Source: an uncultured Lachnospiraceae bacterium (GTDB lineage Bacteria; Bacillota; Clostridia; Lachnospirales; Lachnospiraceae). From it: DNA of 64,000 nt. A model generated the notes under the pieces. That model had not been told where the DNA came from. It ran no database searches and worked only from the letters and a program-made list of their open reading frames with translations. Location: positions 1 through 64,000 of the forward strand of contig CAMWXE010000020.1 of assembly GCA_947178145.1 (NCBI GenBank), read 5' to 3'. Position numbers and translations under genes: made by a program. The first letter of the stretch is position 1; every line of letters starts with the position of its first letter. Shown here piece after piece: positions 55,926 through 61,738 of this stretch.

Positions 55926-57320
55926 ATGGATTTTCAAATGATGAGCACTGCAAATTTTGCGGATGAGCCAGAATTTATTACCGCGTTTGTAGAATATATG
56001 GAGGACTTATATTCTATCGATGCGGAGTTAGAGAATGCGATTGACGCGGATGCGTTTGAGAATCTGACCGCCCTGAAAGACAAGGAAAATATAACGCTGG
56101 ATAAAATGTTTCGCTGTCTCAGCAAGGTGTGCAGGACGGCAAAGAAGCCAGTCGTACTGATGATTGACGAGGTGGACAGCGCATCAAATAATCAGGTATT
56201 TATCGATTTTCTTGCACAGCTTCGGGGGTATTACCTGGCAAGGGAGAGGCGTCCGATTTTTTATTCGGTGATCCTTGCAGGGGTCTATGATATCAAAAAT
56301 CTGAAATTGAAAATACGACCTGATTCAGAGCACCAGTACAACAGTCCATGGAACATTGCCGCAGACTTTGATATCGATATGAGTTTTTCTGTTGACCAGA
56401 TTGAGGCGATGCTGACAGAATATGAATCCGACCATCATACCGGAATGGACAGGAAGGCGGTTGCGAATGAGATCTATCAGTATACGTCGGGATATCCTTA
56501 TCTGGTATCTGCGATCTGCAAGCTCATGGACGAAAAGCTGCCTGCGCAGGAAGTGTTCGGGGACAGAAAGCGTATCTGGACATTGGAGGGAGTATCAGAG
56601 GCGGTAAAGTTGATGATGAAATCAACCGCACCGCTGTTTGACAGTCTGGTAAAGCAGCTTGACACGTATAACGATTTGCGGAAAACGTTTGAGGAGATTA
56701 TCTATCAGGGGAAGAGAGTGCCGTTTAGTCCTGCTGAAAAATCTATCAATTTAGGAATTATGTTCGGCTTTCTGAGGGAAAAAAATGGGCAGGTTGTCCT
56801 GGCAAACCGAATTTTTGAAATGTATCTGATGAACCTGTTTATCACAGAAGAATCCCTTGACAACACGGTATTTAATCAGGGGGAGCGCGACAGGAACCAG
56901 TTTCTGTCCGGCGGCAGGCTCAACATGGACTGTGTGCTTGAAAAGTTTGTGAAGTATTTTCATGATATTTACGGTGAGCGTGACATACAGTTTGTTGAGG
57001 CGTATGGACGCAAGTCTTTCCTGCTGTACCTGAAACCGATCATAAACGGCACGGGGAATTATTATCTGGAAGCGCAGACCAGGGATGCGGGACGGACCGA
57101 TGTCATCGTGGATTATGCGGGCGAGCAGTTTATCATAGAAATGAAGATCTGGAGAGGAAACGAATACATCGAGCGCGGCGAGAAGCAGTTAACAGGATAT
57201 CTGGAGTACTTTCATCAGAAGAAGGGATATATGCTGAGCTTCAATTTTAATCAGAAGAAAGAGATTGGCGTGAAGACGATCACGCTCGGGGACAAGACCA
57301 TCGTGGAGGCGGTTGTCTGA
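55926..57320 (+). pseudogene. N-terminally truncated AAA ATPase with PD-(D/E)XK nuclease domain
   Basis: A 464-aa open frame that reads as the C-terminal three quarters of a common Clostridia family. In that family an AAA-like ATPase domain is followed by a PD-(D/E)XK nuclease-like domain. Walker B is present (VVLMIDEVDSASNN, about 76-88), as is AGVYDIKNLKLK. The C-terminal nuclease motif is RTDVIVDYAGEQFIIEMKIW (about 400-419). The P-loop segment that should lie before residue 1 is missing: reading upstream in frame gives SYTVIA, then a TGA at 55893. The protein therefore cannot bind ATP normally and is probably a pseudogene. No ribosome site precedes the ATG. Confidence 0.72.
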
Positions 57321-57365: not shown

Positions 57366-57394
57366 TTGACAAAACCCAAAAAATAACTTATAAT
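57366..57394 (+). promoter_or_regulatory. Consensus sigma-A promoter ahead of the MATE gene
   Basis: TTGACA at 57366-57371 and TATAAT at 57389-57394 with exactly 17 bp between them, a perfect consensus. Transcription would start near 57401, giving a leader of about 136 bases before the TTG start. Confidence 0.85.
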
Positions 57395-57411
57395 AATAAA
57401 GTCGTGTAGCG

Positions 57412-57449
57412 AAAAGCGTAAATCCAGATGATGGGTATACGCTTTTTTT
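57412..57449 (+). terminator. Leader terminator (possible attenuator) of the MATE gene
   Basis: AAAAGCGTA at 57412-57420 pairs with TACGCTTTT at 57438-57446, with an inner CC/GG step, followed by a run of seven T ending at 57449. It begins about 11 bases after the predicted start of a consensus promoter and precedes the MATE gene. It would therefore stop most transcripts unless relieved. Confidence 0.65.
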
Positions 57450-57536
57450 ATGCATTTCAATAAGGTTGTGGCAGCTTTCCGAAAAAGTCTCCTGAGAGTG
57501 CATGTTACGAATACACTCAATAGAAACGGAGGAAAA

Positions 57537-58940
57537 TTGAATAAAGAAGGAACAACAAACAAGATGGGGACGGGGTCTGTCCCAAAAGTCATGCTGGGCA
57601 TGGGAATACCGATTATCCTGTCAATGGTACTGCAGGCGTGCTATAACATTGTGGACAGTATGTTTGTGGCAAGGATACCAGACACGGATGGCATCACAAA
57701 GGCCGGCGAGTGTGCGGTGAATGCCCTGACGCTGGCATTTCCTGTGCAGATGCTGATTGTGGCATTTGGAATCGGTACAGGTGTGGGCGTGAATGCCCTG
57801 CTTGCAAAGAGCCTGGGACAGCGCGATGAGGAAAAGGTGGCAAAAGCGGCAGGAAACGGGATATCGCTGGCGCTCATCATCTACGCGGTGTTTTTGCTGT
57901 TTGGCCTGTTTGGTGTGAAGGCCTATATCGGAAGCCAGACAAAGGATACCGTGATTCTTGCGATGGGCAACGCGTATCTCACTATTTGTTCCGTCATATC
58001 ATTTGGCATTATCCTGTTTTCCATTTATGAAAAACTGCTGCAGTCGACAGGGAAGACGGTTTATTCCACGATCGCGCAGGTGTCTGGCGCCGTTGTCAAT
58101 ATTGTTCTGGACCCGATTATGATTTTTGGTTATTTTGGTCTTCCTGCGACAGGGATTCGCGGTGCTGCGTATGCCACAGTGATCGGACAGATTGTCTCCA
58201 TGCTGATAGCCATGTATTTTCATTACCGGAAAAATACAGAGGTAAAGTCGGGTGTGAAATACCTGAAACCGGAGCGCGGTATCGTGAAGGAGATATATGC
58301 GATTGGTCTTCCGGCGATTATCATGCAGGCGCTGATGTCCTTTATGACCTACGGCGTGAACATTATTTTCGGCACAGTATCGCAGGCAGCGGTAACAGCA
58401 TATGGTATTTTTTACAAAATCCAGCAGTTTATATTTTTCGCAGGATTCGGGCTCAGGGATGCCATTACGCCGATCGTCTCATTTAATTATGGAATGGGAG
58501 ACCAGAAGCGCGTCAAACAGGGGATATTCTATGGACTTCTCTACACCGAAGTGATCATGCTGGCCGGACTGGTCGGACTGGAACTCTTTGCAAAACCACT
58601 GATTGGGCTTTTTGCCATGTCTGAGGAGACAGAAGGTCTGTGTGTCATGGCGGCAAAGATCATCGCGACAGGTTTTCTGTTTGCCGGTGGAAATATTGCG
58701 ATACAGGGGGTTTTCCAGGCGCTGGGCTGTGGTCTGGACTCCCTGATTGTATCACTGCTTCGGCTGTGCATCATTGTGCTGCCGCTGGCATGGCTGTTTG
58801 CAAGGTTGGAAAACGCTGTTTGGATGATATGGTGGGCATTTCCGATTGCGGAGCTCGTGGCAGTTATCGCAGCAGTCTTATTGATGCTGCGGGCAAATAA
58901 TAAAATCATTAAACCAATGAAAGGGAGGGAATCACAATGA
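57537..58940 (+). CDS. MATE-family efflux transporter
   Basis: A 467-aa multidrug and toxic compound extrusion protein with about twelve membrane helices in two similar halves (GMGIPIILSMVLQACYNIVDSMFVAR at the start; GLPAIIMQALMSFMTYGVNIIFG begins the second half). Such pumps export organic cations using a sodium or proton gradient. The start is a TTG at 57537, five bases after CGGAGGA at 57528-57534; a longer in-frame ATG at 57450 falls in the leader terminator. The last codons overlap the kinase-like gene by four bases, which couples their translation. Confidence 0.88.
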   Translation: MNKEGTTNKMGTGSVPKVMLGMGIPIILSMVLQACYNIVDSMFVARIPDTDGITKAGECAVNALTLAFPVQMLIVAFGIGTGVGVNALLAKSLGQRDEEKVAKAAGNGISLALIIYAVFLLFGLFGVKAYIGSQTKDTVILAMGNAYLTICSVISFGIILFSIYEKLLQSTGKTVYSTIAQVSGAVVNIVLDPIMIFGYFGLPATGIRGAAYATVIGQIVSMLIAMYFHYRKNTEVKSGVKYLKPERGIVKEIYAIGLPAIIMQALMSFMTYGVNIIFGTVSQAAVTAYGIFYKIQQFIFFAGFGLRDAITPIVSFNYGMGDQKRVKQGIFYGLLYTEVIMLAGLVGLELFAKPLIGLFAMSEETEGLCVMAAKIIATGFLFAGGNIAIQGVFQALGCGLDSLIVSLLRLCIIVLPLAWLFARLENAVWMIWWAFPIAELVAVIAAVLLMLRANNKIIKPMKGRESQ

Positions 58941-59527
58941 AGAAAGTAATCACAATCAGCCGTGAGTTCGGCAGCGGAGGAAGAACTATCGGCAAGGAAG
59001 TCGCCGGGAAGCTGGGATATGCTTTTTATGACAAGGAATTGATTGAAAAGATAGCGGAGGAATCCGGGCTTTCGAAAGAATACATCGAAGCGCACGGGGA
59101 GAGCGCACCGAGCAGGAATTTCTTTGCATATGCCTTTGTCGGCAGAGACGCAGCCGGCAATTCGGTGGGCGACTATCTGTGGAGGGCACAGCGGGATATT
59201 ATTGAGAAGCTCGCCGAGAAAGGAAACTGTGTGATTGTCGGGCGCTGTGCGGATTATATTCTCCGAAAAAGGACAGACTGCCTGCATGTGTTCATTCATG
59301 CGGACATGGAGAAGAAAAAGGAACGGATTGTGAATCTGTACGGGGAGATGGGCGCGGCGCCGGAGAAGCGCCTGATGGAAAAGAATAAGACAAGGGCGAT
59401 GAATTACAAATATTACACGGACAGGACATGGGGCATGGCAGAGAACTACCATGTGTCGCTGGACAGCGGCGCACTGGGGGAGGAGCGGTGTGTCTCGCTG
59501 ATTGCCGGACTGGCAAAGGAACTATAA
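58937..59527 (+). CDS. Cytidylate kinase-like P-loop protein, stand-alone
   Basis: A 196-aa protein of the Cytidylate_kin2 type (KKVITISREFGSGGRTIGKEVAGKLGYAFYDKELI; VIVGRCADYILR; HVFIHAD; YYTDRTWGMAENYHVSLDSG). The nucleotide-binding loop reads GSGGRTIG and lacks the usual GK(S/T), so kinase activity is uncertain. It is not the housekeeping cmk in context. The ATG lies within the stop of the MATE gene (ATGA at 58937-58940). The facing gene at 59581-61557 fuses the same two domains, so the pair very likely acts together. Confidence 0.85.
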   Translation: MKKVITISREFGSGGRTIGKEVAGKLGYAFYDKELIEKIAEESGLSKEYIEAHGESAPSRNFFAYAFVGRDAAGNSVGDYLWRAQRDIIEKLAEKGNCVIVGRCADYILRKRTDCLHVFIHADMEKKKERIVNLYGEMGAAPEKRLMEKNKTRAMNYKYYTDRTWGMAENYHVSLDSGALGEERCVSLIAGLAKEL

Positions 59528-59532
59528 CACAG

Positions 59533-59580
59533 GATTCCCCCGCCGGGAGCACGTGGCTGCTCCCGGCGGGGGAATCTTTA
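59533..59580 (+). terminator. Very strong terminator between the two MATE/kinase loci
   Basis: A perfect 19-bp GC-rich stem (59533-59551 with 59558-59576; GATTCCCCCGCC... and ...GGCGGGGGAATC) closes over a six-base loop and is followed by TTTATTATAT. It isolates the convergent loci. Confidence 0.9.
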
Positions 59581-61557
59581 TTATATATTAGATGCCTTTT
59601 GCAAGATATATTGACGGATTACTTCGGCGCATGCCTGTTCGCCGATCGAACTGTCAATACACAATTCGTAATTTTCGGAATGTCCCCAATGCGTACCGGT
59701 TATGGATTTGTAGTAAGCCGAGCGCGCAGCATCGGAATGCTCTATGTTCTGTTCCGCTTCCGCAACGGTGTCACCGTACATTTCCATCACTTTTTTGATG
59801 CGGTAGTTTTTTGGAGCGTGGATAAAAACGCGGATTACCTGGGTATAGTCACGAAGCACGTAATCGGCTGCGCGCCCAATGATAACACAGGTTCCATTGT
59901 CTGCAATCTTCCTGATAATTTTGTCCTGTGCGGCAACGGCCTGCTGGACAATCGTGGTGCTGAGATATAACTCCTTCAAGCGGTCGGGAGCATGTTTGTT
60001 GATGTCAGAGATAAACTCTGCAGCCAGTCCGCTTTCCTGTGCCGCTAACGCGGTCATTTCCTTATAATAGCAGGGTATCTGCATCAGCTCTGCGAGTATC
60101 TGGCCAACCTTCTTGCCGGCGGAGCCATGTTCGCGGGAGATTGTGACGATGACACCGGGAACGGAGGGCTTGATTGTTCCATACGCGTCGGGAGCAATAA
60201 CTGCATTTTCAACCTGAAGCTCTTTCCAGAGCCGGATCATGACGAATGAAGTAATCAGCATTGCAATCACATCAGCGATTGGCGCTGCCCAGAAAATTCC
60301 TGTCACACCGGCGAATACAGGCACAACAATAGAGAATACAATCAACAGCAGATCACGGATAATGGCAAGCGGCGCTGCTGCCTGCGCATGGCCAATCGAC
60401 TGTAAGAAAATGGCACATACTTTCTGTACGCAGGTAAACAGAATCAGCAATAGATAAATTCTGAGACAGCGCACGGCAAACTCCATGTACAGTTCTCCAT
60501 CCGAGCCGAAAAGTCTGATAAAGGCCGCTGGAAATACCTCAAATAAGAACATGCAGACGATACCTACAATAGCAGTCCATTTGATCACGGCTTTTAAGAG
60601 TTCGCGGACGCGGCTGTAATTGCCGGCACCGTAGTTGTAGCCCACGATTGGCTGTGCTCCGGCAGCGATACCAATTGCAATGTTCAGAACGATCTGAAAC
60701 AGTTTCATAATGACAACAAACGCTGCCAGTGGAATATCTGCGCCGTACGATGAGACAGCACCATATTTTACAAGCAGGATATTGTTGACAACGGTGATTA
60801 CCACGATTGACAACTGTGTCAGAAGACTTGAGGTGCCAAGTGCCATAATTTGTCTGAGCAGTTTGAATTCAATATGGAAACTTTGTACCTTCAGTCGGAA
60901 TGTTTTGCTTCTGGTCAGATAAAACGCGCAGATGAGAAAGCTGACAAACTGTCCGAGAATCGTCGCGTAAGCAGCGCCCTTGATTCCTAAGTCAAGAACA
61001 AAGATAGCGATAGGGTCGCCCACAATATTGAGCAGTGCACCGACAATCATTGCACCCATTGCGTACTGCGGGCTTCCGTCAGCGCGGATAATGGACGCCA
61101 GTGTATTTTGTGTCATGGCCAGCGGCATCATGATATAGATGATGTAACCGTAATCATGAGCAAGGGTGATGGTTGCATCTGTAGCACCAATCATGCGAAG
61201 CAGCCCGTCTCCCCATAAGTAGCTGACCAGGATGATCACGACGCCTGAAAGGAATGAGAACAAAATGCTGTTTCCGACACCGCGGTGAATGGTTTCGGTG
61301 TCATTTTTTCCAAGGGCAACACTCAGAAAAGCTGCCGCGCCGTCACCAAAAAAGAGTGACATTCCCCAGCCGATTACAGTGATGGGGAAGATAACGCCTG
61401 TCGCTGCATTTCCAAGATACCCGATACCATTGCCGACGAAGATCTGATCGACAATATTGTACAGGCAGGATATAATAAGACTTGCGATACAGGGAATGCA
61501 AAACTTCATAAGAAGCTTTCCAATCCGTTCTGTTCCTAAATAGTTACTTGATTCCAT
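59581..61557 (-). CDS. MATE transporter fused to a cytidylate kinase-like domain
   Basis: A 658-aa fusion. Residues 1-~450 form a MATE transporter (LGTERIGKLLMKFCIPCIASLIISCLYNIVDQIFVGN; GTSSLLTQLSIVVITVVNNILL opens the second half). After a short linker, residues ~470-658 form a cytidylate kinase-like domain (PGVIVTISREHGSAGKKVGQILAELMQIPCYYKEMTALAAQESGL; VIIGRAADYVLRDYTQVIRVFIHAP; YYKSITGTHWGHSENYELCIDSS). The P-loop is degenerate. The ATG at 61557 follows AAGGAGG on the minus strand; upstream in-frame codons lie in the structured leader. It is encoded tail-to-tail with the two-gene version. Confidence 0.9.
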   Translation of the reverse strand: MESSNYLGTERIGKLLMKFCIPCIASLIISCLYNIVDQIFVGNGIGYLGNAATGVIFPITVIGWGMSLFFGDGAAAFLSVALGKNDTETIHRGVGNSILFSFLSGVVIILVSYLWGDGLLRMIGATDATITLAHDYGYIIYIMMPLAMTQNTLASIIRADGSPQYAMGAMIVGALLNIVGDPIAIFVLDLGIKGAAYATILGQFVSFLICAFYLTRSKTFRLKVQSFHIEFKLLRQIMALGTSSLLTQLSIVVITVVNNILLVKYGAVSSYGADIPLAAFVVIMKLFQIVLNIAIGIAAGAQPIVGYNYGAGNYSRVRELLKAVIKWTAIVGIVCMFLFEVFPAAFIRLFGSDGELYMEFAVRCLRIYLLLILFTCVQKVCAIFLQSIGHAQAAAPLAIIRDLLLIVFSIVVPVFAGVTGIFWAAPIADVIAMLITSFVMIRLWKELQVENAVIAPDAYGTIKPSVPGVIVTISREHGSAGKKVGQILAELMQIPCYYKEMTALAAQESGLAAEFISDINKHAPDRLKELYLSTTIVQQAVAAQDKIIRKIADNGTCVIIGRAADYVLRDYTQVIRVFIHAPKNYRIKKVMEMYGDTVAEAEQNIEHSDAARSAYYKSITGTHWGHSENYELCIDSSIGEQACAEVIRQYILQKASNI

Positions 61558-61705
61558 AATTTCCTCCTTCTTTGCAAACAAAAATGACACATGTGTTCTG
61601 TGCATGTGCCAACAAAAAACACACGCATTACTTTGTTCCGTAATCAGATTTACGTGCAGAGCACTACATGTGTCGTTCAAGTTTTTATGAAATTTCTAAA
61701 GCTTG
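61558..61705 (-). promoter_or_regulatory. Structured leader of the MATE-kinase fusion gene
   Basis: The roughly 145-base leader contains alternative structures. One hairpin (CACG plus ATTAC at 61622-61631, with GTAAT at 61640-61644 and CGTG at 61653-61656) runs, on the minus strand, into TTTTTT at 61619-61614 like an intrinsic terminator. A longer stem pairs 61666-61674 with 61586-61594 (nine perfect bases) and encloses it. The two could be parts of an attenuator or riboswitch. No known riboswitch class was recognised. Confidence 0.55.
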
Positions 61706-61708
61706 ATT

Positions 61709-61738
61709 ATTATAACAACGCATTTCGAAAAAAGTCAA
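61709..61738 (-). promoter_or_regulatory. Promoter of the MATE-kinase fusion gene
   Basis: On the minus strand TTGACT (61733-61738) and perfect TATAAT (61709-61714) are 18 bp apart. Transcription would start near 61702. Confidence 0.7.

Follow-up and report, generated by a model that had tools for sequence, protein, structure and literature searches.

Why should an exporter of the MATE family, usually regarded as a bare antiporter, carry a domain that resembles a nucleotide kinase? The question is raised by two convergent gene modules in a 64,000-nucleotide stretch of DNA from an uncultured Lachnospiraceae bacterium (GenBank assembly GCA_947178145.1, contig CAMWXE010000020.1, positions 1 to 64,000; hereafter the window), each of which joins a MATE transporter to a PF13189 (Cytidylate_kin2) domain, called CK2 here for short. 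The reading developed below, to which as a whole a probability of roughly 0.45 is given, is that CK2 is a pseudokinase that serves as a sensor on the pump, and that expression of the pump is controlled by a leader RNA. That MATE and CK2 are linked physically and in evolution is itself well supported. The natural substrates of such exporters are mostly unknown in gut bacteria.

The two modules and the recurrence of the MATE-CK2 join

On the plus strand of the window, a MATE gene with a TTG start preceded by GGAGG (57537..58940) runs into a CK2 gene (58937..59527), the stop of the former at 58940 overlapping the start of the latter by the four bases ATGA (58937-58940). On the minus strand, a single gene for a protein of 658 amino acids (59581..61557, from an ATG at 61557) carries both domains in one frame and in the same order, with the CK2 part at about 59623-60168. 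Both pumps contain two stretches that match the MatE profile PF01554 (3.5e-40 and 1.1e-36; 137.8 and 126.4 bits against a curated cut-off of 24.9) and lie above the TIGR00797 cut-off, and both CK2 domains match PF13189 (5.1e-51 and 8.9e-43; 173.8 and 146.9 bits against a cut-off of 28). The overlap, the opposing fusion with its domain order and three motifs common to both CK2 translations had been described in an initial annotation of the locus, and all are present. Identity between the two modules is 26.5% in the MATE parts and 35.5% in the CK2 parts, which rules out a recent duplication of one module. The window pumps differ from MepA- and VmrA-like MATE exporters by the cytosolic CK2 domain, fused or paired, and no description of a CK2-type subunit on MATE exporters was found in the open-licence literature of PubMed Central (PMC).

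The MATE-CK2 fusion is not unique to the window. Among the best 80 of 580 confirmed CK2 loci in named genomes, a sample biased towards MATE because the queries were MATE-linked CK2 domains, 37 are fused (some of them in Spirochaetia records), 9 have a MATE gene upstream, 2 have one downstream and 32 have none; on closer inspection two further named loci (L208 and L187; L and G numbers are our own locus and genome labels) also proved to be MATE-adjacent. The record titles of the named loci cover Lachnospiraceae, Oscillospiraceae, Erysipelotrichaceae, Bacilli, Treponema and Spirochaetia, together with one metagenome-assembled genome of Saccharibacteria that is possibly misbinned. Split pairs were also found in Bacteroidota records (L249, with a 44-nucleotide gap, and L251, with an 8-nucleotide overlap), in a Roseburia plasmid record and, in reverse order, in another Bacillota family (L232). 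When the three best candidates per genome were scored in 299 genomes of the host's family, five showed an intact fusion frame (G253, G106, G056, G268 and G123), three a partial or broken one (G140, G195 and G172), and no fewer than eight others a close MATE/CK2 pair. All of 150 family genomes have a PF13189 match, true Cmk counted in. The host genome itself holds ten PF13189 matches, one of which is the canonical Cmk, and four of the other nine stand with MATE: the two in the window, a CK2 gene at a contig end with a MATE fragment 231 nucleotides upstream (L137), and a CK2 gene followed by MATE (L141). As a separate observation, at three loci (L144, L145 and L165) the fusion is immediately preceded, on its own strand, by a second MATE gene.

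An estimate of enrichment was obtained from 24 family genomes drawn systematically for a census. Of their 102 PF13189 rows, 65 were retrieved, and CK2 was present in 64 of these; the 37 omitted rows scored below 59 bits and were mostly Cmk-like or fragments, and L135 has no CK2 by our own profile. A same-strand MATE gene lies directly upstream of CK2 in four of the 64 loci (L095, L104 and L116, all intact, and the decayed L134) against an expectation of 0.24 (P = 1.1e-4 for four cases and 0.0019 for the three intact ones), which was calculated from some 355 MATE genes over 68.7 Mb, assuming a gene density of 0.95 per kb and 68% of neighbours on the same strand. Among the far genes, 1 of 129 was also MATE (at L104). 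Seen from the pump, about 1% of the MATE genes in the census are accompanied by CK2. A unique fusion or a chance neighbourhood is ruled out by the recurrent fusions and this enrichment; the functional link that had been proposed from the fusion and the overlapping pair is thus strengthened by the genome search and the co-occurrence count, as well as by a further join (L218) described next.

The history of the join was followed in quick trees supported by the Shimodaira-Hasegawa-like approximate likelihood ratio test (SH-aLRT). In a tree of 163 CK2 domains (three loci, L132, L133 and L142, were left out as they have no domain of 150 amino acids), 43 of the 44 fused rows fall in one clade of 44 (SH-aLRT 98), and the remaining one, L218, lies in a different CK2 clade, joined to its MATE half in one frame. 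The MATE-adjacent label requires 17 changes on this tree, at least 8 of them forced by starred branches. On the MATE tree, in which the fused MATE parts were thinned to representatives and which carries long-branch warnings, the fused label requires five changes, all five of them forced by starred branches, and the fused parts are split between two unlike MATE subfamilies. Moreover, in L167, L171 and L186 the MATE subfamily of the window split pair is found on a CK2 of the main fused clade, so a single type of CK2 has come to be joined to different pumps. The linker spans 17-37 amino acids in fusions whose two domain matches do not overlap. Across 33 fusions, column identity is 0.573 in CK2, 0.453 in MATE and 0.221 in the linker. 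Ratios of non-synonymous to synonymous substitution rates against L151 are 0.046 and 0.022.

A leader RNA before both modules

Both window modules begin with a conserved leader RNA of 50-60 nucleotides that ends in a terminator, a feature overlooked in the initial annotation and new here. Element 1 (57400..57449, plus strand), a terminator hairpin with a U-tract, precedes the split pair and folds at -17.4 kcal/mol (z -4.07); element 2 (61614..61673, minus strand), with a terminator-type outer stem and a U-tract, precedes the fusion and folds at -18.7 kcal/mol (z -3.22). Promoter-like sequences, read as consensus matches only, lie upstream of each: TTGACA-17-TATAAT before the split pair (57366..57394, plus strand) and TTGACT-18-TATAAT before the fusion (61709..61738, minus strand). 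The TATAAT ends 5 nucleotides before element 1. A TATAAT-like box was found within 20 nucleotides upstream in 36 of 56 elements (43% in shuffled sequences), and an exact TATAAT ends 5-8 nucleotides upstream in 17 of the 56; the window fusion leader is an exception, its TATAAT ending 35 nucleotides before element 2. Searches against Rfam 15 gave nothing above the gathering cut-off over either window leader, where E-values up to 5 returned below-cut-off matches only, and no match over the leaders of 23 further loci.

The leader is associated with exporter genes. A regular expression, fitted to the very leaders it counts, matched upstream of 21 of 38 fused, 9 of 34 CK2-adjacent and 1 of 26 CK2-less MATE genes, the last of which sits beside a fusion, against 11 of 1960 shuffled sequences. 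Because the exact pattern GTGGC...GCGTAAATCCAG found no match in the host genome, a covariance model (R1) was used; its training set of 20 sequences included 17 from CK2-linked loci, so that it is biased towards such leaders. R1 finds three copies in the host genome, namely the two in the window (49.5 and 59.6 bits, both training-set members) and a third, absent from the training set, ahead of a pair of ABC exporter genes. It gives 17 matches with E < 1e-5 in the 80 named loci, all training members except L186, and 54 matches with E up to 1e-4 in 39 of 200 family genomes. When 40 of the resulting regions were examined (those of G000, G194, G132 and G056 being left out, and some ending too early to show CK2), a MATE gene was found directly downstream of the leader in 30, with CK2 fused or adjacent in 10 of those 30. 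The census share of MATE genes with CK2 is only about 1%, but the bias of R1 bears on this comparison. A leader specific to CK2 is ruled out, the leader instead going with exporters.

Covariation supports the fold. In 20 aligned leaders, 11 pairs reach a covariation of 0.627 against 0.297 in shuffled alignments (0/500), and the terminator helix reaches 0.391 against 0.219 (0/500) in 30 sequences on which R1 was not trained. The 5' bases of the terminator helix can also pair with three bases after the core, as seen in 55 of 60 rows against a shuffled mean of 36.2 and a maximum of 43 in 2000; these rows were pooled from alignments A8 and A10, deduplicated and limited to a CC(A/G) core, for which reason the window fusion leader was not among them. 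In a smaller alignment (A11), covariation of this competing helix was above that of shuffles (0/500). A transcription-terminating switch requires such an arrangement of two exclusive helices with one strand in common. In such a switch, the U-tract hairpin would stop transcription and the competing helix around the conserved core (GCGUAAAUCC) would let it through on a signal. The trigger of read-through is probably linked to the substrate of the pump, and the leader RNA would thus offer a direct handle on that signal. Other fusions carry a second leader form, in which GUCGAACAGC precedes a terminator based on GCGUAGAAUC (18 sequences, 13 pairs, 8 of them with double changes), and the window split-pair leader combines features of both forms.

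Could the leader be a diverged member of a described riboswitch class? Guanidine-IV and Gd4v RNAs also precede MATE genes and have a conserved GU in the terminator loop (PMC7736828, PMC9788692, PMC12186494; in the available parts of these papers), and the leader shares with them a Rho-independent U-tract terminator; were it one of them, the window pumps would export guanidine-like compounds. Those classes are described in the same parts of these papers as two hairpins joined by a pseudoknot, in constructs of about 95 nucleotides, whereas the present leader consists of a single compact hairpin plus a competing helix and stands also before ABC exporters. Where an exact TATAAT ends 5-8 nucleotides upstream, as in the 17 of 56 elements, there is no room for a first hairpin, and it is by these published descriptions that the leader is set apart. 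The loop positions quoted as conserved for the Lactococcus lactis RNA, in the available text, do not align with GCGUAAAUCC, and Rfam 15 returned no match, although it is unconfirmed that this release includes guanidine-IV. A guanidine riboswitch is considered unlikely.

Several further features of the leaders were observed. Tandem leader elements, each with its own terminator, occur at thirteen loci (L313, L315, L318, L320, L321, L322, L323, L324, L325, L327, L330, L335 and L343). The same leader RNA as before MATE genes stands before ABC exporter genes at L151:1546-3348 (minus strand) and L278 (G000:C115), and a weaker one was found in G179 (L277, E 0.0136). Fusion-type leaders (GUAAAUCUGAU...) also precede small proteins with no family above cut-off (L311, L319, L321:2073-2150, L337, L340 and L341). 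A second conserved stretch, GTTTTCAGGTAGCTTTTCTCTGATAAAGACTC-like, follows the terminator at L153, L155, L157 and L158 and in the window at about 57460-57500.

CK2 as a kinase-like domain without the Walker lysine, beside many carriers

The P-loops of the host Cmk (GPAGAGKST) and CK2 (REFGSGGRT) align without gaps. The position of the Walker lysine is occupied by Gly in 161 and by Ala in 2 of the 163 CK2 domains, with Gly in both window domains, so that the missing GK(S/T) reported for the window is a family-wide property. Arg, Lys or His usually comes next, and the first P-loop Gly of CMP (cytidine monophosphate) kinase is also replaced. A canonical P-loop match returned by a regular expression in L137 was rejected, as it sits downstream of the actual P-loop. 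Other residues are near-invariant, namely Arg6 (161 of 163), the Gly (163) and Arg (161) of the GR motif, the Arg of DKxR (160) and a Trp (154), and this holds across partner types. Two structures of PF13189 proteins, 3hdt and 3fdi, are of the same family and length as the window CK2 (family-profile matches 1.6e-53 and 1.3e-47); these entries are labelled merely 'putative kinase' and 'uncharacterized protein', whereas the window CK2 is tied to a pump. The resemblance to Streptococcus pneumoniae Cmk (1q3t) is distant and at the level of the fold (E 0.053), with the GR motif and the C-terminal part aligned; CMP kinase has the Walker A lysine of GxxxxGK(S/T), and CK2 has Gly or Ala there. The GR and DKxR arginines are kept in CK2, and their equivalence to the nucleoside monophosphate (NMP) side of CMP kinase rests on a weak alignment.

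CK2 is not confined to MATE partners. It is fused to EamA in L236 and to DUF6198 in L107 and L247 (the latter by our own profile), and in L101 with an interrupted frame. CitMHS-type genes adjoin CK2 in 6 of the 64 census loci, in both orders and with gaps of -4 to 15 nucleotides, and MFS_2 genes lie 9-38 nucleotides from it in L233, L234 and L237. MFS_1 genes (L113 and L188), ABC exporters (L140 and L214) and CstA (L096) are also found near CK2, and Liv-type ABC ATPases accompany it in a clade of eight. In the available part of a report on Fusobacterium nucleatum, the induced genes include an RND permease (CS401_RS3610), a hypothetical gene and a CK2 gene (RS03620) (PMC9848294). Carrier partners as diverse as these fit a general regulatory module better than a single-substrate enzyme, and CK2 is probably a shared control part of membrane transporters.

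Soluble cytosolic modules such as RCK/TrkA_C, CBS and USP are common to unrelated transporters. CK2 resembles them in its range of carriers and differs in its fold; we know of no nucleotide-kinase-like domain that serves as a regulatory module of carriers. Each window module may thus be a self-contained exporter unit, in which the leader RNA would set transcription and the product would be a MATE exporter whose cytosolic C-terminus bears CK2, fused or as the partner encoded by the overlapping gene. In this arrangement CK2 would be a pseudo-nucleotide-kinase, with a conserved ligand site and without the phosphate-binding lysine, acting on the pump as an allosteric sensor or brake; it may bind a nucleotide-like ligand and so control transport, and the RNA would answer to a ligand of its own. 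The earlier idea that the domain may gate the pump or modify its substrate stands in part, in that a control role would fit, from sequence, both the conservation of the site and the range of transporters found as partners. The suggestion that it energises the pump is not supported, the Walker lysine being lost, and no support was found for a nucleoside-like substrate, the partners being too diverse. If the reading is correct, conserved cytosolic control by CK2 would mean secondary transporters gated by a cytosolic signal, and the large uncharacterised CK2 family would gain its first testable role. More tentatively, the lysine-less fold could be a general plug-in control domain for carriers from unrelated superfamilies (MATE, EamA, CitMHS, MFS and ABC). 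Part of the MATE branch would then be expressed under a new kind of switch RNA, minimal in size and close to the start site, to which ABC exporters would be subject as well, giving exporter control at two levels.

Two other roles for the domain are held to be doubtful, to a like degree. CK2 could be an active kinase that phosphorylates a compound before export, or that phosphorylates a nucleotide priming that compound: the residues aligned with the NMP side of CMP kinase are retained, the relatives by fold are kinases, and a fusion would channel the product. This role is opposed by the Gly or Ala at the Walker lysine position in 163 of 163 domains, by the use of one conserved site with exporters, with carriers of the CitMHS, MFS and EamA types and with a carboxylase, and by the presence in the host of a canonical Cmk with GPAGAGKST. 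Alternatively, CK2 could be an assembly or stability partner of membrane carriers that senses nothing, as would suit a domain that occurs with carriers unrelated to one another, whether fused to them or encoded separately on either side; yet pocket-like residues are near-invariant across partner types, beyond the needs of a scaffold, and soluble CK2 exists without carriers too. That CK2 is an ordinary nucleotide enzyme found near MATE incidentally is highly improbable, despite the many CK2 genes in housekeeping neighbourhoods and a separate gene pair with a phosphoribosyltransferase, being already contradicted by the recurrent fusions, the two fused MATE subfamilies, the L218 join and the overlapping pairs.

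Weighing the reading, and neighbouring features

A number of observations weigh against a pseudokinase sensor under leader-RNA control. On the side of the protein, loss of the Walker lysine is no proof of lost catalysis, many CK2 genes have no transporter beside them, RluD-type pseudouridine synthases make up 10 of the 64 upstream neighbours of census CK2 genes, and one CK2 is fused to a biotin carboxylase (L125:1588-3591). The census effect rests on three intact cases, and the named sample was collected using MATE-linked queries. On the side of the RNA, doubly changed pairs in the competing helix are not above shuffles in A11 (344/500), and the isolated 34-nucleotide stretch folds no better than shuffles. 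Ten of the 40 leader loci have no MATE gene directly downstream; the genes behind these leaders, partly scanned, include a hybrid histidine kinase, a glycosidase, a type I restriction subunit, an amidohydrolase and small family-less proteins, with no pattern. Weak R1 matches (E 1.4e-4 to 0.06) include unrelated genes, and in a further 83 loci, of the CK2 family or related, E fell below 0.01 for two members of the training set only.

Finally, some neighbouring features are recorded. A CK2 with a C-terminal extension stands directly beside a phosphoribosyltransferase gene at L239, L241 and L244, in other Bacillota families, and these pairs may represent a second CK2 system. At L190:3291-4961, a gene for a CBS/DRTGG-type DHH pyrophosphatase lies 30 nucleotides upstream of CK2. 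Within the window, a perfect GC-rich hairpin read from the sequence (59533..59576) lies between the 3' ends of the convergent modules and is probably a shared terminator, and just upstream of the split pair (55926-57320) there is an AAA_35-type ATPase with a weak PD-(D/E)XK nuclease match.

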